A DNA stretch of 64,000 nucleotides, from assembly GCF_000337775.1 (NCBI RefSeq), contig NZ_AOLQ01000054.1, positions 62,001 to 126,000 of the forward strand. Direction: 5' to 3'. Source of the stretch: Haloarcula vallismortis ATCC 29715 (GTDB lineage: Archaea; Halobacteriota; Halobacteria; Halobacteriales; Haloarculaceae). Every line of letters starts with the position of its first letter. The stretch's first letter is position 1. This document shows, piece by piece, positions 2,212 to 12,527 of the stretch. The notes under the pieces were generated by a model. It saw nothing but the letters and a program-made list of their open reading frames with translations, made no database searches and was not told the DNA's origin. The translations under genes were made by a program, and so were the position numbers.

Positions 2212-2790
2212 ATGACAGACGTTCTCGTCGTCGGCGGCGGCCCCGCCGGCCTGAGTGCGGCGCTGTTCGCCCAGAAAAACGGCCTGGAAACGACAGTCTT
2301 CGACACTGACGGGACCTGGATGCACAAAGCGCACCTGTTCAATTACCTCGGGGTGGGCTCCCAGGATGGGTCCGCGTTCATGGAGACTGCTCGTACACAA
2401 GTCGACAGCTTCGGCGTCGACCGAAAGCAGGGCACCGAAGTGACCGACGTGGGGCAAACCGACGGTGGATTCGAGGTTACGACCGAGGACGGCACGCACG
2501 AAGCAACATATCTCGTCCTCGCGACGGGGGCGAACCGTGATCTCGCTGCATCCCTGGGCTGTGACATGACTGACGAGGAGGTCGTCGACGTGGACGTGAC
2601 GATGGAGACGAGTGTCGACGACGCCTACGCGACGGGGGGTATGGTCAGAGCCGAGGAGTGGCAGGCGGTCATCTCCGCCGGCGACGGCGCGGCCGCGGCG
2701 CTGAACATCCTCACGAAGGAGAAAGGAGAGCACTTCCACGACTTCGATACGCCCGCCGACGCGGACGAGATGTTCGGCCCCGAACCGTAG
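2212..2790 (+). CDS. Short FAD-binding thioredoxin-reductase-like protein
   Basis: 192 residues. The N-terminus carries the dinucleotide-binding GGGPAG motif at residues 8-13 and the C-terminal half has an ATG motif (LATGANRD) and an aspartate-containing segment resembling the second FAD-contact motif of thioredoxin reductases. Compared with thioredoxin reductase (about 310-330 residues) the NADPH-binding domain and the redox-active CxxC pair are missing. It may bind FAD as a compact module and exchange electrons with a partner, or be a structural flavoprotein. Start at the ATG 2212; the alternative GTG-type start at 2188 adds eight residues without family likeness. It is transcribed divergently from the alcohol dehydrogenase. 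Confidence 0.72.
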   Translation: MTDVLVVGGGPAGLSAALFAQKNGLETTVFDTDGTWMHKAHLFNYLGVGSQDGSAFMETARTQVDSFGVDRKQGTEVTDVGQTDGGFEVTTEDGTHEATYLVLATGANRDLAASLGCDMTDEEVVDVDVTMETSVDDAYATGGMVRAEEWQAVISAGDGAAAALNILTKEKGEHFHDFDTPADADEMFGPEP

Positions 2791-3243
2791 CTTCGAAGCG
2801 AGCCCGAACGGGCCTATCTCACCACTAACCGCTGAGCGCTGCTGTTTTGAGACGCGAGAATATCAGGGACTCGACCGCCGATCCGCGAGCAAGGCGGGAT
2901 ATACGTATCACGCACGAGCAGGCCGGTGTGGTGCCGTGCCCGCTGTCGTCACCGACTCTATTGGCGACGGCGTCGTCTTCGAGTCGGAACGCACCGGGGC
3001 GCGTATCGATGGCGAGTGCTGTCGCCGGTCGAGCTGTCGCTTGGTCCGCTGTTTGACCGTCTCGAATCACCACCTCGGACAGACGGAACGTTCGATGTAG
3101 ACCACTTCGGAAGCGCTGAACGATGGTGAGAAAGCACACAGCCGTCCCGGAGTGACTACATCGAGTCAATCGCTGTGCGTATTCAATGTAATAGGATGTA
3201 AACACGCTTCTATTACATACGATTCAACTGTACTGCACTGAAA
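2791..3243. other. Gene-poor 453-base gap, possible decayed ORF
   Basis: No convincing intact gene. On the plus strand bases 2940-3050 have haloarchaeal-like codon use (a segment reading VVFESERTGARIDGE) that shifts frame and then continues as a segment reading SPVELSLGPLFD at about 3022-3060. This could be a short decayed gene, but no family is recognised. The right end carries an inverted repeat described separately. Confidence 0.3.
3186..3218. repeat. Inverted repeat downstream of thuA-like gene
   Basis: ATGTAATAG (3186-3194) and CTATTACAT (3210-3218) form a perfect 9-base inverted repeat with a 15-base spacer. It lies 26 bases beyond the stop of the minus-strand ThuA gene and could fold as a 3' hairpin. 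Its right arm belongs to a 14-base string shared exactly with the operator-like site at 12328-12341. Confidence 0.5.
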
Positions 3244-3984
3244 TCAGTGGACCGACCGCTCATCACTTTCGTCGATGTCTTCGATAGGGTCGGCGTTGCC
3301 AAACGACGGTTCCGGACCGTCTCCGGCCGCAGCCCACTCGCAGGCGTTCGCGAGGACCTGCTGGATCTCCTCGTTGTGGTAGATGGGGTACGTCTCGTGG
3401 CCCGGCCGGAAGTAGAATATTCGGCCCGCCCCACGGCGGTAGCAACATCCTGACCGGAACACTTCGCCGCCCTCGAACCAGGAGTTGAACACGAGCGTGT
3501 CCGGCGCGGGGATGTCGAAGCGCTCGCCGTACATCTCGGTCTCCGGGAGTTCGATGTACTCGTCGACGCCGTCGGCGATGGGGTGGCCGGGTTCGACGAC
3601 CCACAACCGCTCTGTTTCGGCGGCTTCGCGCCATTTCAGACTGCAGGTCGTCCCCATCAGTTCGCGGAATATCTTCGAGTAGTGACCCGAGTGGAGAACG
3701 ATGAGGCCCATGCCGTCGAGGACCCGCTCTTTCACCCGGTCGACCACCGCGTCCTCGACTTGGTCGTGTGCTGCGTGCCCCCACCAGGTCAGAACGTCCG
3801 TCTCTGCCAGTACATCCTCAGTGAGGCCGTGCTCGGGTTCCTGGAGCGTCGCGGTTTCCGCGTCGAATCCGCGCTCCTCCAGAGCCGAGGCGATAGCGCC
3901 GTGAATTCCCCCGGGATACAGGTCTGCGACCGCCTCGTGTTCCTGCTCGTGGACGTTCTCGTTCCAGACTGTGACACGCGTCAT
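3244..3984 (-). CDS. ThuA-like domain protein (trehalose-utilisation family)
   Basis: 246 residues forming a single ThuA/glutamine-amidotransferase-like fold. Visible family features are the VWNE start strand, LHSGHYSK near the centre (the position of the nucleophile elbow in class I amidotransferases, here without cysteine), and FRPGHE near the C-terminus. In rhizobia ThuA takes part in trehalose/sucrose utilisation by forming 3-keto sugars, but the exact activity of this archaeal branch is not known. Start at 3984 gives the family-like [10 protein letters not shown]; the frame upstream to 4050 lies in the non-coding control region. No ThuB-type dehydrogenase is adjacent, so a role in sugar metabolism is inferred only from the family. 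Confidence 0.8.
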
Positions 3985-4270
3985 ACTCGTGGTTTCCACT
4001 TCCGCCGTAACGGCGTTCGCCAAGCGGCAATTTGTACGGTAGGAGAACACGACACGGTCTCGGATTCGCGGCTGTTCGTTGAGGACCTTCTACAGCACCT
4101 TTTTTGACCTCAGGTATCGCGTCGTGTAGTTCTGCGTTGCCTGCCCGATTCCCGCTGGCGCGCGCCAGCGCCGCTCGACGGTGGCTATGACAGCCGTGAC
4201 GGTGAAGGCCAATACGACCCGAATTTCGGCCCCATCCACAGGACCCCGAAATTCGCTCTGAAAGCGTCAA

Positions 4271-4286
4271 ATGCAGACGACTGTAT
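4271..4286. promoter_or_regulatory. Operator-like site D, ATGCA-N6-TGTAT
   Basis: ATGCA GACGAC TGTAT, a 5-base inverted repeat with one mismatch. It has the same spacer length and nearly the same spacer as the perfect site at 4344-4361. Located 370 bases before lctP and 287 bases before the thuA-like start. Confidence 0.35.
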
Positions 4287-4343
4287 AGCGTTTCAGCAGG
4301 AGTACAGTCGAGTGAAATTGCCGGGTAAAGGACTGCTATACCG

Positions 4344-4361
4344 GATACACACGACTGTATC
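4344..4361. promoter_or_regulatory. Operator-like site B, GATACA-N6-TGTATC
   Basis: GATACA CACGAC TGTATC is a perfect 6-base inverted repeat with a 6-base spacer. The architecture and the spacer (nACGAC) match the site upstream of the winged-helix regulator at 12321-12338 read on the opposite strand. Probable binding site of a dimeric regulator of the lactate genes; the regulator is not identified. Confidence 0.4.
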
Positions 4362-4469
4362 CCATCCCGTTGGTTCGTACAAAATAATCCCTGATTTTCG
4401 TTGTGTCAACGCTTCTCGCTCCTGTTCTGCCGAAATTCTGGGCAGACTATAATGTAAACAGTAGATAGG

Positions 4470-4477
4470 TATAAATA
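4470..4477 (+). promoter_or_regulatory. TATA-like element upstream of lctP
   Basis: TATAAATA in an AT-rich stretch, predicting a transcript start near 4500 and therefore a 5' leader of about 155 bases before the lactate permease. A purine-rich ribosome-binding sequence GGGGTGA at 4644-4650, seven bases before the ATG, fits a leadered message. Confidence 0.35.
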
Positions 4478-4656
4478 CTCCCTGCCAAACGACGTGACTG
4501 ATGCATCCCATCAAAAACCACTGTATCGGATGGTTTCGAGCGATAGAGCTACGTACCGAGGTGGTTCCGAAATGAGAGTACAACATCGTATCCCGGAGTG
4601 GACTGTCGGTGAGAGTGCGACCTGTCTGGACGAACGTATCTTTGGGGTGAGTCTCA

Positions 4657-6435
4657 ATGTCTGAGCACACACTGGTGCTGATGGCGCTGCTGCCGCTGGC
4701 GACGATTGCGGTGTTGATGGTCGGGCTGTACCAGCCTGCGACACGGACAATGCCTATCGCGTGGGCGGTGGCGGCTATCGCCGCCTTCGTCGGCTGGCAG
4801 ATGTCGCCCCGGCTCATCGCCGCCGCGTCGATACGCGGCGCGCTGACAGCGACCAGAATCCTCGTCATCGTCTTCGGGGCGATACTCCTGCTATACACGC
4901 TGAAACAGTCCGGCGCGTTCGAGGTCATCAATGCCGGGTTCTCCTCGATTAGCGACGACCGGCGCGTGCAGGTCATCCTGCTCGTGTTCCTCATGGGGTC
5001 GTTCATCGAGGGCGCAGCCGGCTTCGGGACGCCCGCGGCGATTGTCGGTCCGCTGCTGGTCGGCCTGGGCTTCCCGCCGCTGGCCGCTGTGGTCGTCGCG
5101 CTCACGGGGAACATTCTGGCAATCACATTCGGAGCGGTCGGCACGCCGCTGATCATCGGACTCCGTGACGTGGTGTTCGCGGAGGGGACCGGGGCGTCAC
5201 AGCAGGTGCTCCAGCAGGGTGGCTTCGAGAGTGTCGGCGCATACGTCGCCCAGATCGGCGTGTGGGCGGCGGTCATCCACGCCATCGTTGGCATCGCTAT
5301 CCCGTTCATCGGTGTGGCGATGATGACCCGCTTCTTCGGCGAGGAGCGGTCTCTCAAGCCGGCGCTCGAAGTCCTGCCGCTGTGCCTGTTCGCATGGGCC
5401 TCCTTTGCGATTCCGTACGTCGCCACCGCGTACTTCCTCGGCCCGACGTTCCCTGGCCTGCTGGGGGCGATGGTCGGCCTGCTCGTGGTCACGACCACGC
5501 TTCGTGCCGGCTACTTCCTCCCGGACAACGAGTGGGACTTCGGCCCACAGGACCAGTGGCCGGACCACTGGATCGGTAGCATCGAGCCCGGAGAGGGCGT
5601 CGGCACCACGTCGGGCGGGAGCCGAGAGGGGACTGTTGCGGCCGACGGCGGGACGGCGTCGTTCGAGGAATCCCACTCGCAGGATATGTCGCTGGGCATG
5701 GCCTGGCTGCCGTACCTCCTCGTCGCCGCGTTGCTCGTCGTGACTCGCGTTGTTTCTCCGGTTCAGGAGTTCCTGGCGACAAACGGCGTTCTCATGTGGA
5801 ACAACATCCTCGGGACGCCGTTCTCGGAAGGCGTCGAGATGCTCTATCTCCCCGGGAGTCTCTTCGTTCTCGTGGCCGTCATCACCTACGCGCTTCACGG
5901 GATGGACACTGACGGAATCAAAGCTTCGTGGAGCGAGGCGCTTCGAAACATCGCACCGGCCGTCGTCGCGCTGTGGTTCGCTGTCGCTACGGTCATGATC
6001 ATGCAACGGACCGGCAGTGCCGTCGTGCTGGAGACCGCGCCGATCAACTCCGGGATGCTCGGCCTGCTGTCTGAGATCACGGCCGATGGGACCGGCCAGA
6101 TGTTCCCGTTCTTCTCGGGCTTCATTGGTGCGTTCGGTGCGTTCATTGCCGGCTCGAACACGGTCAGCGACATCCTGTTCGGGCTGTTCCAGTTCCAGGC
6201 AGCCCAGCAGATCGGTGCGCCGACCCAGATTATCGTCGCCGCACAGGCGGTCGGTGGCGCAATCGGCAACCTCATCGCGATTCACAACGTCGTGGCCGCC
6301 CTCACAGTGGTCGGCCTCATCGGCGAGGAGGGACGCGTCATCCGTCTCGAACTGATACCGGTGCTGTACTACGGCGTGTTCACGGGCATACTGACGCTCA
6401 TCCTGGCGTACGTCGTGGCACCGGCTGCGTTCTAA
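4657..6435 (+). CDS. lctP: L-lactate permease, LctP family
   Basis: 592 residues, very hydrophobic, about 13-14 membrane segments. The family-defining region FIEGAAGFGTPAAIVGP (about residues 113-129) and the C-terminal PFFSGFIGAFGAFIAGSNTV segment are both present. LctP proteins import lactate (and glycolate) with protons. A hydrophilic loop at about residues 295-345, rich in Gly, Ser and Glu, is longer than in most bacteria and typical of halophilic versions. The ATG at 4657 follows a GGGGTGA ribosome-binding site. The next gene, 25 bases downstream on the same strand, is a lactate/glycolate-type dehydrogenase, so the two probably form a lactate import and oxidation operon controlled from the repeat-rich region upstream. 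Confidence 0.93.
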   Translation: MSEHTLVLMALLPLATIAVLMVGLYQPATRTMPIAWAVAAIAAFVGWQMSPRLIAAASIRGALTATRILVIVFGAILLLYTLKQSGAFEVINAGFSSISDDRRVQVILLVFLMGSFIEGAAGFGTPAAIVGPLLVGLGFPPLAAVVVALTGNILAITFGAVGTPLIIGLRDVVFAEGTGASQQVLQQGGFESVGAYVAQIGVWAAVIHAIVGIAIPFIGVAMMTRFFGEERSLKPALEVLPLCLFAWASFAIPYVATAYFLGPTFPGLLGAMVGLLVVTTTLRAGYFLPDNEWDFGPQDQWPDHWIGSIEPGEGVGTTSGGSREGTVAADGGTASFEESHSQDMSLGMAWLPYLLVAALLVVTRVVSPVQEFLATNGVLMWNNILGTPFSEGVEMLYLPGSLFVLVAVITYALHGMDTDGIKASWSEALRNIAPAVVALWFAVATVMIMQRTGSAVVLETAPINSGMLGLLSEITADGTGQMFPFFSGFIGAFGAFIAGSNTVSDILFGLFQFQAAQQIGAPTQIIVAAQAVGGAIGNLIAIHNVVAALTVVGLIGEEGRVIRLELIPVLYYGVFTGILTLILAYVVAPAAF

Positions 6436-6460: not shown

Positions 6461-9400
6461 ATGGCATACGAATCCCGACCCCCCAAACAACACGACCCGG
6501 CGACAGACCCGAGCGCGAACTACGATTACCAGGGCGACAGCGTCAACCGGCCGGACCTCGTTGCGGCTCTGGAGCGTCGCGTGGACGGCGACGTACGCTT
6601 CGATACGTACACCCGGGAACTGTTCGCGACCGACGCGAGCGCCTACGAACAGCTCCCTATCGGCGTCGTCTCGCCGGTTTCGACCGACGATGTGGTCGCG
6701 GTGATGGAGTACTGCGCCGACGAGGGCATTCCTGTGCTCCCTCGGGGCGGCGGGACAAGTCTCGCCGGGCAGGCAGTCAACGAAGCGGTTGTCCTCGATT
6801 TCAAACGGCACATGGACGAACCGCTGTCGGTCGACCCGGAGGCCGGTCGGGCCCGTGCGCAGGTTGGCATCACCATCGCCCGCCTCAACGACCGCCTCGA
6901 ACCGCATGGCCTGAAGTTCGCGCCGGACCCCGCGTGGGGCGATAAGAGCGTCCTCGGCGGTGCAATCGGAAACAACACGACCGGCGCACATTCGCTGAAA
7001 TACGGCAAGACGGACGCCTACATCGAGGAATGCGAGGTCGTCCTCGCGGACGGGACCCGGACGACCTTCGGCTGGGTCGATGTCGACGCCCTCGAAGCAC
7101 GGGCGGCCGAGGCCGGTCCGGACGCAGACCTCGAAACGCGAATCTACGCCGAAGTCGCCAAGATCCTCGCAGAAGACGCCGAAGAGATCGACGCGAGATA
7201 TCCGGATCTCAAACGCAACGTCTCCGGGTACAATCTGGACGAACTGGTCGACAGCGCCAGGGAGCGCGGCGAGGTAAACCTCGCCCGACTGTTCGCCGGG
7301 AGCGAGGGGACGCTGGCCGTCGTGACTGAAGCGACGGTCTCGCTTGAACCCGTCCCCGAGGCCACGGCCGTAGCCATGCTGACCTACGACAATATCATCT
7401 CGGCGATGGAGGACGTCGCCCCGATTCTCGACCACGACCCCTCGGCCGTCGAGGTGATGGACGACGTGTTGCTTGACCTCGCTGCGGAGACGCCGGAGTT
7501 CGCCGATGTCGTCGGCATGCTTCCCGAGGAGACGGACTCGACACTGCTCGTCGAGTTCTACGCGGATTCGGCCGAGGACGGCGCACAGAAGGTCGCCGAC
7601 CTGCTCGCCGACCGGCTCCCGGACTACGACGCCAGAGAGTCGCCGAGTGACGGGGCGGGTTCGGTCACTGACGCCCCCGTCAACGCCGTCGACGCGCTGG
7701 AGGCCTACGACGCGGACCGGCAGGCAAAGTTCTGGAAGATGCGCAAGGCCGGGCTGCCGATTCTGCTGTCGCGGACCGGCGACGACAAGCACTGGCCGTT
7801 CGTCGAGGACACAGCGGTCCCGGCCGAGAACCTCCCGGAGTACATTGCAGACATCCGGGAGCTGTTCGACGAGCACGACACCTTTGCCTCCTACTATGCT
7901 CACGCCGGCCCCGGCGTCCTGCATATCAGGCCGCTGTTGAACCTGAAATCCGGGGACGGCATCGAGACGATGGAAGCAATTTCCGACGCCATCACAGACC
8001 TCGTCGTCCAGTACGACGGGTCGGTGTCGGGGGAACACGGCGACGGTCGCGCTCGGACCCAGTGGAACCGCAAACTGTACGGCGACGACCTCTGGGAGAC
8101 GTTTCGGGACCTGAAGTCGGCGTTCGACCCGGACTGGCGGCTGAACCCGGGCAACATCTGCGGCGAGCACGACCCGGCCGAAAATCTCCGGTACGACCCG
8201 GACTACGAGTTCGACGCGGGATTCGAGCCCGCGCTCGACTGGGGCAACGAGAACGGGTTCCAGGGGATGGTCGAACTCTGTCACGGCTGTGCGGGCTGTA
8301 CCGGTCATCAGGAAACCACGGGCGGGGTGATGTGTCCCACCTACCGCGCCGCCGAAGAGGAAATCACCAGTACTCGCGGCCGGGCGAATATGCTCCGGTC
8401 TGCGATGGACGGTGACCTCCCCGACGACCCCTTCGAGGAGGGGTTCGTTACCGAAGTGCTGGACCTCTGTATCGGCTGTAAAGGCTGCAAGAAGGACTGT
8501 CCGAGCGGCGTCGACATGGCGAAGCTCAAGGCCGAAGTGGTCCACGAACACCACCAGCGTGAAGGTATCTCGCTGCGGGACAAACTGTTCGCCAATGTCG
8601 AGACGGTGCTCTCGCTCGGGAGCACGTTCGCCCCGGTGTCGAACTGGCTGATGGACCTGCCGGGCTCAGGGTTCCTCATGGAGAAAACGGTCGGCATCAC
8701 GGAGGAGCGGACGCTGCCCGCTTTCCACCGGACCACGTTCCGGGACTGGTGGGCCGACCGCGGCGGGGCGCTGGTCGCGGCGAACAAAGCCGACCGGAAG
8801 GCGCTCCTGCTCGCCGACCCATATACGAACTACAGCCACCCCGATGTCGGGAAAGCGGCTGTAACAGTTCTGGAGGCGGCGGGCGTCCACGTGGTCGTCC
8901 CTGACGCCGTGACTGACAGCGGTCGTCCCGCGTTCTCCAAGAGTATGCTGGACCACGCTCGCGAGACGGCACGGACGAACGTAGACGCGCTCGCACCGCG
9001 AATCCGCGACGGCTGGGACGTTGTCACTATCGAACCCTCGGACGCGGTGATGTACCAAGTCGACTACCGGGACCTGCTGTCGGGTGACGACGTCGAAACC
9101 GTCGCGGCGAACACATACGGTATCTGCGAGTACCTCGATACATACCGGCTGGGGGAGGCGATTCCCTTCAAGGAACCGGGCGACTCGCTGGCGTACCACG
9201 GCCACTGCCACCAGAAGGCGACGAAGAAGGACCACCACGCTGTCGGCATCCTTCGGCGCGCCGGCTACGACGTGGACCCGCTCGATTCTGGCTGTTGTGG
9301 CATGGCCGGGAGTTTCGGCTACGAGGCAGAACACTACTCGATGAGCGAGGGGATCGCGGCGCTCCTCTTGGGACAGATCGACGACTCGCCTGCCGAGCAG

Positions 9401-9505
9401 GTCGTCGCGCCCGGCGCATCCTGTCGGTCTCAGATCGACGACTTCGGCGATGGCAACGAGGAGCCGCCACATCCAATCGAGATGGTCGCGGCAGCAATCA
9501 GGTAG
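6461..9505 (+). CDS. FAD-linked oxidase / Fe-S fusion, D-lactate or glycolate dehydrogenase type
   Basis: A 1014-residue fusion of GlcD-like and GlcF-like halves. Residues about 45-270 are a PCMH-type FAD domain with the PRGGGTSLAGQ motif, followed by the FAD-oxidase C-terminal domain ending with the GEHGDG motif near residue 525. Two ferredoxin-like clusters follow, CHGCAGC...CP at about 607 and CIGCKGCKKDCP at about 669. Two CCG-type domain elements, GHCHQKA near 914 and DSGCCGMAG near 944, close the protein. Such enzymes oxidise D-lactate or 2-hydroxyacids and pass electrons through Fe-S centres to the respiratory chain at the inner membrane face. Position directly after lctP supports lactate as substrate. 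2-Hydroxyglutarate is a possible alternative, since YdiJ-type fusions use it. Confidence 0.9.
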   Translation: MAYESRPPKQHDPATDPSANYDYQGDSVNRPDLVAALERRVDGDVRFDTYTRELFATDASAYEQLPIGVVSPVSTDDVVAVMEYCADEGIPVLPRGGGTSLAGQAVNEAVVLDFKRHMDEPLSVDPEAGRARAQVGITIARLNDRLEPHGLKFAPDPAWGDKSVLGGAIGNNTTGAHSLKYGKTDAYIEECEVVLADGTRTTFGWVDVDALEARAAEAGPDADLETRIYAEVAKILAEDAEEIDARYPDLKRNVSGYNLDELVDSARERGEVNLARLFAGSEGTLAVVTEATVSLEPVPEATAVAMLTYDNIISAMEDVAPILDHDPSAVEVMDDVLLDLAAETPEFADVVGMLPEETDSTLLVEFYADSAEDGAQKVADLLADRLPDYDARESPSDGAGSVTDAPVNAVDALEAYDADRQAKFWKMRKAGLPILLSRTGDDKHWPFVEDTAVPAENLPEYIADIRELFDEHDTFASYYAHAGPGVLHIRPLLNLKSGDGIETMEAISDAITDLVVQYDGSVSGEHGDGRARTQWNRKLYGDDLWETFRDLKSAFDPDWRLNPGNICGEHDPAENLRYDPDYEFDAGFEPALDWGNENGFQGMVELCHGCAGCTGHQETTGGVMCPTYRAAEEEITSTRGRANMLRSAMDGDLPDDPFEEGFVTEVLDLCIGCKGCKKDCPSGVDMAKLKAEVVHEHHQREGISLRDKLFANVETVLSLGSTFAPVSNWLMDLPGSGFLMEKTVGITEERTLPAFHRTTFRDWWADRGGALVAANKADRKALLLADPYTNYSHPDVGKAAVTVLEAAGVHVVVPDAVTDSGRPAFSKSMLDHARETARTNVDALAPRIRDGWDVVTIEPSDAVMYQVDYRDLLSGDDVETVAANTYGICEYLDTYRLGEAIPFKEPGDSLAYHGHCHQKATKKDHHAVGILRRAGYDVDPLDSGCCGMAGSFGYEAEHYSMSEGIAALLLGQIDDSPAEQVVAPGASCRSQIDDFGDGNEEPPHPIEMVAAAIR

Positions 9506-9542: not shown

Positions 9543-9989
9543 TCAGAACCCGATACCGTCCCGCTGTCTGACCGCAACGTCGTATCCGTCCACTGTCGAC
9601 CGAAGCGCCTGTGTGAACGGTTCTGCGTCGAACTGGCCGTGCACTCGAACCGTCGTTGCGGAGGCTGTCTGGGGCTGTGCTGTGACTTTCGGCCGACCGA
9701 CTCGGCCACCGGTGTGGATATCGACACTGTCGAGTGTGTCGTATGACTGTGTTTCGACCTGTTCGGCTGTCTCGATAGCCGCGGGGACGCCCTCCTCGAC
9801 CACCTGTGACGCGAACGCGGCGGCCCGCTGGTCCGGCGATCCGAACAGCAGGTCGACGGGGGTCAGATAGTCGTACTCGACGAAGTAGGCCCGCTCCGTA
9901 CAGAACAACACGTCGACCAGCCGGAGTGGGTACGACCCTCGCATCGTATAATGCAAGTGGACGCGGAGTTCGTCGGTCACGAGAACCAC
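9543..9989 (-). CDS. Conserved haloarchaeal protein of unknown function, third gene of Nramp operon
   Basis: 148 residues, soluble and acidic, no membrane segment and no motif I recognise. The N-terminal 60 residues contain a hydrophobic-aromatic strand pattern (RLVDVLFCTERAYFVEYDYL) followed by an LFGSPDQRAAAFA helix, and the C-terminal part alternates short strands with threonines. Its start overlaps the end of the upstream Nramp-like gene by 13 bases, so the two are almost certainly co-translated, which suggests a role linked to that transporter such as a cytoplasmic accessory or sensor. It ends 37 bases from the convergent dehydrogenase gene. Confidence 0.65.
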   Translation of the reverse strand: MVLVTDELRVHLHYTMRGSYPLRLVDVLFCTERAYFVEYDYLTPVDLLFGSPDQRAAAFASQVVEEGVPAAIETAEQVETQSYDTLDSVDIHTGGRVGRPKVTAQPQTASATTVRVHGQFDAEPFTQALRSTVDGYDVAVRQRDGIGF

Positions 9990-11743
9990 CCTTTCGCAGT
10001 GGCCGCGTCAGCGACCGTTCCGTCTGCCGCAACCTTCGCACGTCCCACCCGATACATCGTATACACCTGGACGAGCAGGAAGACCGCCCAGAGGGCGTAC
10101 CCCCCCGGTGCACTGCCGAGTACGGTCGTCTGGACGGCAAACGCCTGCAACCCCAGCCGTGTCGTCAGCCCAGTCCCGATCAAGAGGACGCTGAAATAGC
10201 CGAAAAACGCGGCGGCGACCCACATCGCGGCGACGCGGCCCCAGCCCGGCATCGTGTGTTCCGGGAGTCGGACTGTGTTGACGAGTTGGACGATGACGAT
10301 GTAGGGCCACATCAGGAGCCCGGACATCGCCGCCCCAACGACCAAGAGTCCGAACGGGTCAGATATCGATATCGGCAGGGTGAGGATGAGCACGCCCCAG
10401 CCACAGAAGACGGTCAGCAGCCCCCAGAACAGTCGCGGCAGGCTCCAGCCCGCTTCCCGCCCGTACAGCTCGTAGATGATGTCGGAGCTGTTCCGGACGA
10501 ACGATTCGATGATCGCGTATTCGGTCGTAAACAGGGCGAGAAACAGCGTGACGTAGATGACGCTCGTCGTGACCCCGCCGACGGACGGCGCAATCTCGAT
10601 GAGCCACATATCTACTGCGTCACTCGTCGTCCCCGGTGCTTGCGACACCGCGATGACGACCAGTATTGTCGTGACTAGCAGGAGGCCCAGCAGGAAGGTC
10701 AAGAGGTGTTCGAGCTGTGTCACGCGCCACCAGCCCCGCCACCGTTTGAGGTTTTGCGTGTCCGGAGTGAACGTGAACCCGTCTTCGTGAACGGTTTCGG
10801 GGTCATCGCCGGCGAAGGGATTCTTGATTCGGCCCTGATACCGGCCCATTCCGTAGCCTTTCTCGCGTATCCAGAGGCTCTGTGAGAGGTTGAGGTACCC
10901 GCCAGCCCCGGCATATGCTAGCGCGCCGACCAGCACGGCGATGGTCCCGACCGGCGAGTAGTCACCGACTTCTGTCAGACTTCCCGGAACGCTAAACAGC
11001 ACGTCCACCGACCCGATGAGAACGAACAGCAGCAGTGCGAATGCGATGGACAGCGCCACCAGAATAAGCTGGAGGCTCTCGACGACGTTGTACATCAGCG
11101 GCGTCACCTGATAGGTAATCCAGATGAACACCATGAGCGCGATGCCGAACAGTCGCCAGCCGACGATGTCGACGCCGGCAACGTCGTACGTGCCGAGTGC
11201 GAGCCCTTCCGCCCCGATTCGCGCGGCGCTTGCGGCCCAGCCCGGCCAGCCCAGACTGACGAACCCGCCCAGTAGCATGGCCAGCGGAAGGACCGGATGG
11301 ACCCGTTCGAATGCCCGAAACACGCTCTCACCGGTCGCGAGTGTCCACCGCTGTATCTCGGTGTTGATGATAAAGTGGAGACTGACAGCCACGAGGAACA
11401 GCCAGTACAGTCCCCACCCGTAGCTGGCGACCAGATGTGGCCAGAACAGCGTCTCACCGCTCCCGAGTGATGCCCCGAGCATGATTGCGCTGGGACCGAC
11501 GACGTGGCGGAGCTTCGGCACTTTCGGCAACGAGAGTTCTCTGAACCGCCCGCCCGTTCCCGTGTCTGGATGAGCATCGCTCTCTGGTGCCACTTCGAGA
11601 TTGTCATACGCGACCGGGGTGTACGACGAGATGGGATACCGCTGCTCTTTACGAGAGGCGTACACCTCCGATGTCTCTGCCTCACCCTCTTGCGCTACGT
11701 CCGACTGTTCCGTCGGCTTTTCCTCTGGCATCGATGAACTCAC
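9977..11743 (-). CDS. Nramp (SLC11)-related transporter lacking canonical metal motifs
   Basis: 588 residues: a hydrophilic, acidic N-terminus of about 90 residues, then about 11-12 membrane segments of the LeuT-like SLC11 family. The first segment reads GASLGSGETLFWP where canonical Mn/Fe transporters have the DPGN metal-binding motif, and the sixth reads AYAGAGGYLNLSQ where they have MPH. The metal-coordinating residues are thus absent, so manganese transport should not be assumed. The GTG at 11743 overlaps the TGA of the regulator gene (GTGA), favouring this start by translational coupling; the ATG at 11731 is the alternative. It is the middle gene of a regulator-transporter-unknown operon. 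Confidence 0.8.
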   Translation of the reverse strand: MSSSMPEEKPTEQSDVAQEGEAETSEVYASRKEQRYPISSYTPVAYDNLEVAPESDAHPDTGTGGRFRELSLPKVPKLRHVVGPSAIMLGASLGSGETLFWPHLVASYGWGLYWLFLVAVSLHFIINTEIQRWTLATGESVFRAFERVHPVLPLAMLLGGFVSLGWPGWAASAARIGAEGLALGTYDVAGVDIVGWRLFGIALMVFIWITYQVTPLMYNVVESLQLILVALSIAFALLLFVLIGSVDVLFSVPGSLTEVGDYSPVGTIAVLVGALAYAGAGGYLNLSQSLWIREKGYGMGRYQGRIKNPFAGDDPETVHEDGFTFTPDTQNLKRWRGWWRVTQLEHLLTFLLGLLLVTTILVVIAVSQAPGTTSDAVDMWLIEIAPSVGGVTTSVIYVTLFLALFTTEYAIIESFVRNSSDIIYELYGREAGWSLPRLFWGLLTVFCGWGVLILTLPISISDPFGLLVVGAAMSGLLMWPYIVIVQLVNTVRLPEHTMPGWGRVAAMWVAAAFFGYFSVLLIGTGLTTRLGLQAFAVQTTVLGSAPGGYALWAVFLLVQVYTMYRVGRAKVAADGTVADAATAKGWFS

Positions 11744-12312
11744 CCACCAACGTAGTGCCAGACGTGCTCGTGGTCGGCAGCCAGGTCAACCTGTGGGAGG
11801 TCTTCTAAGGCGGGCCCGATAGCATCCCACCACTCGTCAGCGGTCTTGTAGCCCGCCGGATGTTCCTGAAACACCTCAGTAATGAGTTCCCCGGCATCGG
11901 TATCGGGATTTTCACGAAGATAATCGTACGCGGCTCTCAACGCCGAACGCCGGTCGTCGAGTACCGCACCTGTCCCCGGCAGGTCCGCATCGGCGATACT
12001 GTGTTCGACTGGTGGCTCTCGGTCCTGTTGCGGTTCCGTGCTCGGGCCGACGAGCTGGGAGAACGGGATCCACCAGACCCGGCTCCGCGCGCCGACCTTT
12101 CGCGTTTCCAGCTTCCCTCGTTCCACGAGTATGTCGAGCTTGTTGTGTGCCGTCTTCCGGGAACAACCGAGTGCGTCCATTACGTCAGTTGCGGTCAACG
12201 GCTTCGCTTGATCCGTCCGATCTTGAAACACCGAGAGCACCCGCTCTGGTGTGAACTCTGCCGTGGACGGTGGTGACCCGTCAGCCCGACCATCGTCCGC
12301 GGTATTGCTCAT
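11740..12312 (-). CDS. Winged-helix transcriptional regulator, first gene of the Nramp-like operon
   Basis: 190 residues. Residues about 15-80 form a winged helix: TPERVLSVF, a recognition region DVMDALGCSRKTAHNKLDIL, and a basic wing RKVGARSRVWW. The C-terminal 90 residues form a second acidic helical domain, probably for dimerisation or ligand sensing. The ATG at 12312 is chosen because an operator-like inverted repeat (12321-12338) lies just upstream, where a leaderless transcript would start; a start at 12321 would put the repeat inside the gene boundary. The 4-base overlap with the transporter gene and the upstream repeat suggest autoregulated control of the transporter. Confidence 0.8.
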   Translation of the reverse strand: MSNTADDGRADGSPPSTAEFTPERVLSVFQDRTDQAKPLTATDVMDALGCSRKTAHNKLDILVERGKLETRKVGARSRVWWIPFSQLVGPSTEPQQDREPPVEHSIADADLPGTGAVLDDRRSALRAAYDYLRENPDTDAGELITEVFQEHPAGYKTADEWWDAIGPALEDLPQVDLAADHEHVWHYVGG

Positions 12313-12320
12313 ACGTAGCA

Positions 12321-12338
12321 ATTACAGTCGTATGTAAT
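12321..12338. promoter_or_regulatory. Operator-like inverted repeat ATTACA-N6-TGTAAT
   Basis: A perfect 6-base inverted repeat with a 6-base spacer (GTCGTA), starting nine bases before the regulator's ATG. Repressor binding here would cover the transcription start. A 14-base part (12328-12341) recurs exactly at 3209-3222, and the same arm-spacer design recurs before lctP. Confidence 0.5.
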
Positions 12339-12527
12339 AGACTTTTCTGCACGAATCTCTGTTTCGGGAGCAAACGCTTTCGCTCCGTCTGACGCTCGAT
12401 AGGTCTCAATCACACACGAAGGTATGAATAGACTCTCTCAGTGGACACACCAATAATGGGGTAGGAAAAACCCTCCTCAATCGGTTCCCCCCGCTAGCGA
12501 TCACGCTCCGCTGGAGTAGTCTGACTC

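Follow-up and report, generated by a model that had tools for sequence, protein, structure and literature searches.

Local regulators of catabolism are often repressors that their substrate releases, and LldR, a regulator of this local kind, is a GntR-type protein. Its gene in Escherichia coli (lldPRD) adjoins the lactate permease and lactate dehydrogenase genes that it controls, as described in the available part of PMC10272880. Among haloarchaea, TrmB of Haloarcula hispanica and Halobacterium is a winged-helix regulator of carbon metabolism with a partly palindromic operator. The position of a site relative to the TATA box predicts the sign of control: TrmB-type archaeal regulators activate when bound upstream of this element and inhibit when bound downstream (PMC10817205). 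TrmB serves a genome-wide regulon with gluconeogenic targets and is not autoregulated in vivo in Har. hispanica (PMC10817205). A bicistronic operon for a lactate permease and an FAD-dependent oxidoreductase, homologous to the one analysed here, is found in Haloferax volcanii (HVO_1696-HVO_1697), and deletion of ludBC (HVO_1692-HVO_1693) in the same organism impairs rhamnose use through lactate (available parts of PMC7714728 and PMC8305020). No regulator of this lctP operon is named in the literature searched, the available parts of these two papers included, and the searchable literature, to which most subscription papers and preprints do not belong, gave no description of a haloarchaeal lactate regulator.

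The stretch of DNA analysed here, referred to as the window, comprises 64,000 nucleotides from Haloarcula vallismortis ATCC 29715. Its plus strand carries lctP (4657-6435), coding for a lactate permease family transporter (Pfam PF02652, E 3.6e-99; TIGR00795, E 6.1e-99, slightly under its cut-off), followed by a gene for a GlcD/DLD-GlcF type fusion oxidoreductase with FAD and Fe-S domains (6461-9505; Pfam FAD_binding_4, FAD-oxidase_C, Fer4 and CCG), a probable 2-hydroxyacid dehydrogenase. This pair, lctP-dld, runs rightward from 4657, and a minus-strand operon of three genes converges on it from the right. The first of the three, with an ATG start, codes for a winged-helix regulator of 190 amino acids (11740-12312). 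The second is a gene for an Nramp-family transporter (9977-11743; NCBIfam NF037982, E 1.4e-68), overlapping the regulator stop, and the third codes for a 148-aa protein (9543-9989) without a match in Pfam or NCBIfam, whose gene adjoins the Nramp gene in several genera.

The regulator belongs to a family unnamed in both Pfam and NCBIfam and spread over about 30 genus-level groups in Halobacteria; the named relatives whose regulators are 93-96% identical to the window protein are Haloarcula species. HTH_20 (PF12840, an ArsR-like winged helix) matches the window regulator weakly, with 22.0 bits against a gathering cut-off of 27, and matches 22 of 22 relatives at E up to 0.01. The TrmB domain (PF01978) gives no match in the window protein at E 0.01 and weak ones in 4 of the 22 relatives (best E 0.001). 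Neither GntR nor FCD, the domains of a GntR/FadR-type LldR, is matched in Pfam or NCBIfam, a PDB sequence search with the regulator profile returned no matches, and a fold search with the whole chain gave no match at E up to 0.001. An AlphaFold2 model, with low overall confidence (pTM 0.42), contains a confident winged helix at about residues 22-81 and a helical C-terminal domain. The regulator appears to share the HTH_20 fold and is of no named family.

We propose, with a probability of roughly 0.8, that this protein recognises four operators, O1 to O4, through which it would autorepress its own operon and control lctP-dld, most likely as an activator. The operators are copies of a palindrome of approximately TACANTCGANTGTA, which is the best symmetric description of the motif; its length can be given as 14-18 bases. 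O1 (ATTACAGTCGTATGTAAT, 12321-12338) lies at -9 to -26 from the regulator ATG; ATTACA-GTCGTA-TGTAAT is present there and, in agreement with the initial annotation, starts nine bases before this codon (A at 12312, minus strand). The other three are located upstream of lctP: O2 (AATGCAGACGACTGTATA, 4270-4287, 20.8 bits), O3 (AGTACAGTCGAGTGAAAT, 4301-4318, 22.9 bits) and O4 (GATACACACGACTGTATC, 4344-4361, 27.3 bits), with spacings of 31 bp for O2-O3 and 43 bp for O3-O4, or about three and four helical turns. The quoted GATACA-CACGAC-TGTATC is indeed present at 4344-4361, as is ATGCA-GACGAC-TGTAT at 4271-4286. In that earlier list of sites, the members at 12321-12338, 4344-4361 and 4271-4286 hold good, O3 was overlooked, and the one at 3209-3222 falls away.

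The initial annotation had described the sites as half-sites around a free spacer, NNTACA-N6-TGTANN, and would itself have abandoned this pattern at chance frequency. The core TACA-N6-TGTA occurs at 23 places genome-wide versus 26 for the reversed control, and it was therefore rejected as a definition of the regulon. The spacer is part of the informative motif, with TCGA, TCGT or ACGA at its centre, and the two perfect sites, one of them reverse-complemented, have it in common (TACAGTCGTATGTA and TACAGTCGTGTGTA). The more specific sequence TACAGTCGTNTGTA has two exact matches in the genome of 3.92 Mb, both in this locus, and four places at up to one mismatch, three of them here; for TACANTCGANTGTA, six sites are found at up to one mismatch versus one for the control, and three of the six belong to this locus. 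A matrix trained on Haloarcula sites, the four window sites included, scores the four operators at 20.8-27.3 bits and the next best position of the window at 9.8. The three TACANTCGANTGTA matches outside the locus are isolated, and we rejected each as a member of the regulon: the C12 site falls within a long ORF, which we read as aglB, the C7 site stands alone, and the C69 site precedes an NhaC-like antiporter ORF by about 340 bp. The last (G000:C69:404525-404538, L227:5526), an operator-like site with one mismatch, is the sole other genome match with a plausible promoter position. In this genome, the regulon looks local, consisting of four operators and two operons.

Within Haloarcula the operators are conserved. 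O1 is invariant in 13 of 13 regulator promoters and forms part of a block (-37 to -1) in which 36 of 37 bases do not vary, versus 5 of 53 at -90 to -38. Each of the 12 aligned genomes retains O2, O3 and O4 at the same distances of 31 and 43 bp; 13 of 18 bases are invariant in O2, 13 of 18 in O3 and 14 of 18 in O4, versus 30 of 211 in the interval 4050-4260.

The same sites are found in other genera, where regulator orthologs of about 44-65% identity mostly adjoin lctP, the oxidoreductase gene and/or the Nramp gene. When a Haloarcula-only matrix was applied to 52 other loci, 49 of them, which represent 30 of 32 genus-level groups, had their best site in the 500 bp preceding the regulator gene or lctP; 1.9 of 52 are expected by area, and 200 column-shuffled matrices average 8.8, a single one of them reaching 43. 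With a threshold of 15 bits, these upstream regions contain 62 sites and the remaining sequence one, counts that are not independent across loci, the genomes sharing descent. Two loci, L143 and L154, contain no convincing operator site. Array sites are mostly 20-23 or 41-43 bp apart across loci, and the Haloarcula arrangement of 31 and 43 bp has close parallels (28-29 and 42-43 bp) in Halobellus, Halomicroarcula and a Haloarculaceae archaeon. Helical phasing of the operators is suggestive (R 0.54 for a period of 10.5 bp, 0.66 for one of 11 bp), with a 7-bp period fitting as well (R 0.69). Together with the co-occurrence described below, this conservation in and beyond the genus bears out the linkage of the regulator-Nramp operon to the lactate genes by common sites, as first suggested in the initial annotation.

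A mechanism can be put forward from the placement of the sites. In Haloferax volcanii, 72% of protein-coding transcripts are leaderless (PMC4983044), and the regulator transcript is probably leaderless as well. O1, at -9 to -26 of such a gene, would therefore overlap both the TATA element and the start region; the putative TATA-like element of the regulator promoter (TATTACATA, 12331-12339, minus strand) lies in the invariant block at -19 to -27 from the ATG and is overlapped by O1. The regulator, bound to the pseudo-palindrome TACANTCGANTGTA probably as a dimer, would at O1 block TBP/TFB and polymerase at the promoter of the regulator-Nramp-DUF operon and so repress its own synthesis. Repression by overlap of this kind follows established archaeal promoter logic. 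The same protein would bind O2, O3 and O4 and control lctP-dld. Gene context suggests that the C-terminal domain probably senses lactate, or another 2-hydroxyacid related to it, as the signal.

The sign of control at lctP is the part of this scheme held with less assurance. The likely core promoter of lctP is a block GGTATAAATACTCC (4468-4481, plus strand), conserved with few changes in 12 of 12 genomes, and O2-O4 are situated about 107-198 bp upstream of its TATA box without overlapping it. Activation is favoured because O2-O4 lie upstream of the core promoter, and we lean towards it, together with autorepression, by a modest degree. Activation by recruitment is not the sole reading, given the long distance between the array and the lctP TATA box. 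The same regulator could, through the same sites, also repress lctP-dld: from the upstream array it would assemble cooperatively or form a loop, and lactate would release it, a logic like that of bacterial LldR. The overlap of O1 with a core promoter implies that the protein can repress, several in-register sites at lctP would suit cooperative assembly, and substrate release is, as said above, common among local regulators of catabolism. We nevertheless regard repression of lctP as appreciably less probable, given that O2-O4 leave the core promoter free and that upstream sites accompany activation in TrmB-type archaeal regulators (PMC10817205).

Which protein recognises the sites can be judged from their distribution. 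When the regulator gene is present in the locus, 48 of 59 lctP genes have a site that scores 11 bits or more and is no further than 600 bp away; the 11 below this score are mostly extra lctP copies. When the regulator is missing from the locus, 34 of 35 lctP genes are without a site. The sole exception, L194, has its regulator about 0.5 Mb away in the same genome, where it possesses four operators of its own, 21 bp apart within pairs. Conversely, the regulator sites are still present in four loci (L126, L135, L147 and L149) with the regulator present and lctP not in view. The Fisher value for this co-occurrence, 7e-15, overstates the independent evidence because the loci are related by descent. 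Sites that accompany the regulator without lctP, and are absent at lctP without the regulator, suggest that the cognate factor is the regulator itself, and for the adjacent winged-helix protein this role is very probable. A different protein could in principle bind the sites, the neighbouring winged-helix gene being merely another of its targets, and the same genomes do have other regulators with similar N-terminal HTH domains; this is improbable, since the sites track the regulator in both directions and are present in trans where it sits elsewhere. One further locus (L200, genome G171) may represent a switch in decay: a regulator fragment with in-frame stops adjoins lctP there, and operator-like sites persist upstream of the permease gene.

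The initial annotation had also counted a site at 3.2 kb as a member of the regulon. The shared sequence TCTATTACATACGA does occur at 12328-12341 (minus strand) and 3209-3222 (plus strand) as quoted. The latter was rejected as an operator: it contains one half-site, scores 9.1 bits and is not conserved across the genus, where relatives mostly have TTAAATACGA or similar at this position and just two close ones a similar half-site. Nearby, TGTAATAG at 3187-3194 is partly conserved, with no conserved gene recognised next to it. The FAD-reductase-like and thuA-like genes are separated by 456 bp here (2790-3244), by 200 bp in one relative and by about 880 bp in most Haloarcula genomes, possibly the trace of a lost or decayed gene. 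Chance resemblance of inverted repeats in A+T-rich promoter DNA is the best explanation of the 3209-3222 match and agrees with the chance-level count of the loose pattern, yet for the four operators it is contradicted by the conservation results already given, the specific motif being enriched, conserved in the genus and across genera and co-occurring with the regulator, and it deserves hardly any credence there. The observation behind the initial annotation is real and partly confirmed, with its motif and membership to be corrected.

A further feature precedes lctP itself. Its leader (4501-4664, plus strand) contains two chained small ORFs, 4501-4575 (24 aa) and 4572-4664 (30 aa), the first beginning about 32 nt after the start of the TATA block; they are joined by an ATGA overlap, and the second ends over the lctP start codon in ATGTCTGA. 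All 12 of the 12 Haloarcula genomes preserve both frames. Among 89 haloarchaeal lctP loci (upstream of lctP in L109-L161 and L184-L223), 66 have a leader ORF that terminates at the lctP start, versus about 16 in shuffled leaders, and it occurs with or without the regulator. Variable columns of the first ORF in Haloarcula are even over codon positions (10, 11 and 9), with no sign of selection on its peptide, and coupling, rather than the peptide, may be what is kept. Upstream ORFs in long haloarchaeal leaders (PMC4983044) and termination-reinitiation in archaea (available part of PMC6728339) are already known. We tentatively suggest, at somewhat short of even odds, a combined picture in which a nameless archaeal regulator family and a phased operator array control lactate uptake, and a second, independent layer acts on lctP: a leaderless small ORF would end on the lctP start, so that permease synthesis needs leader translation (termination-reinitiation), with a two-ORF relay in Haloarcula and, in a number of other genera, an ATGCC...GGCAT repeat where the leader ORF begins. 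This ATGCC-N-GGCAT inverted repeat is absent from the window; it was observed in the lctP leader of 17 of 94 loci (among them L109, L112, L113, L120, L129, L130, L137, L138 and L156), often at the leader ORF start codon, with 0.4 expected by shuffling and 3 in control stretches inside lctP. It is a candidate 5'-end hairpin or second operator.

Our results assign a likely function, together with an operator and a regulon of two operons, to a nameless regulator family, and they propose a dedicated regulator of haloarchaeal lctP-dld; we found none published. The proposed switch is a compact one of two operons and is testable; if true, it would be a dedicated archaeal lactate/2-hydroxyacid switch with a defined operator, open to direct experiment in both Haloarcula and Haloferax, and might be put to use as an inducible promoter system. 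The regulator has the sequence features of a local autoregulated operon regulator, with a conserved palindromic operator both at its promoter and at an adjacent target operon. It resembles TrmB as a haloarchaeal winged-helix protein with a partly palindromic operator, and differs from it in the missing TrmB-domain match and in a predicted regulon that is local; by Pfam's own cut-offs it stands outside both TrmB and HTH_20. Compared with LldR, it has no GntR-type domain match, and its response to lactate is putative. As judged from gene order and sites, it would act in the manner of LldR, as a local and autoregulated regulator of catabolism, from outside that family.
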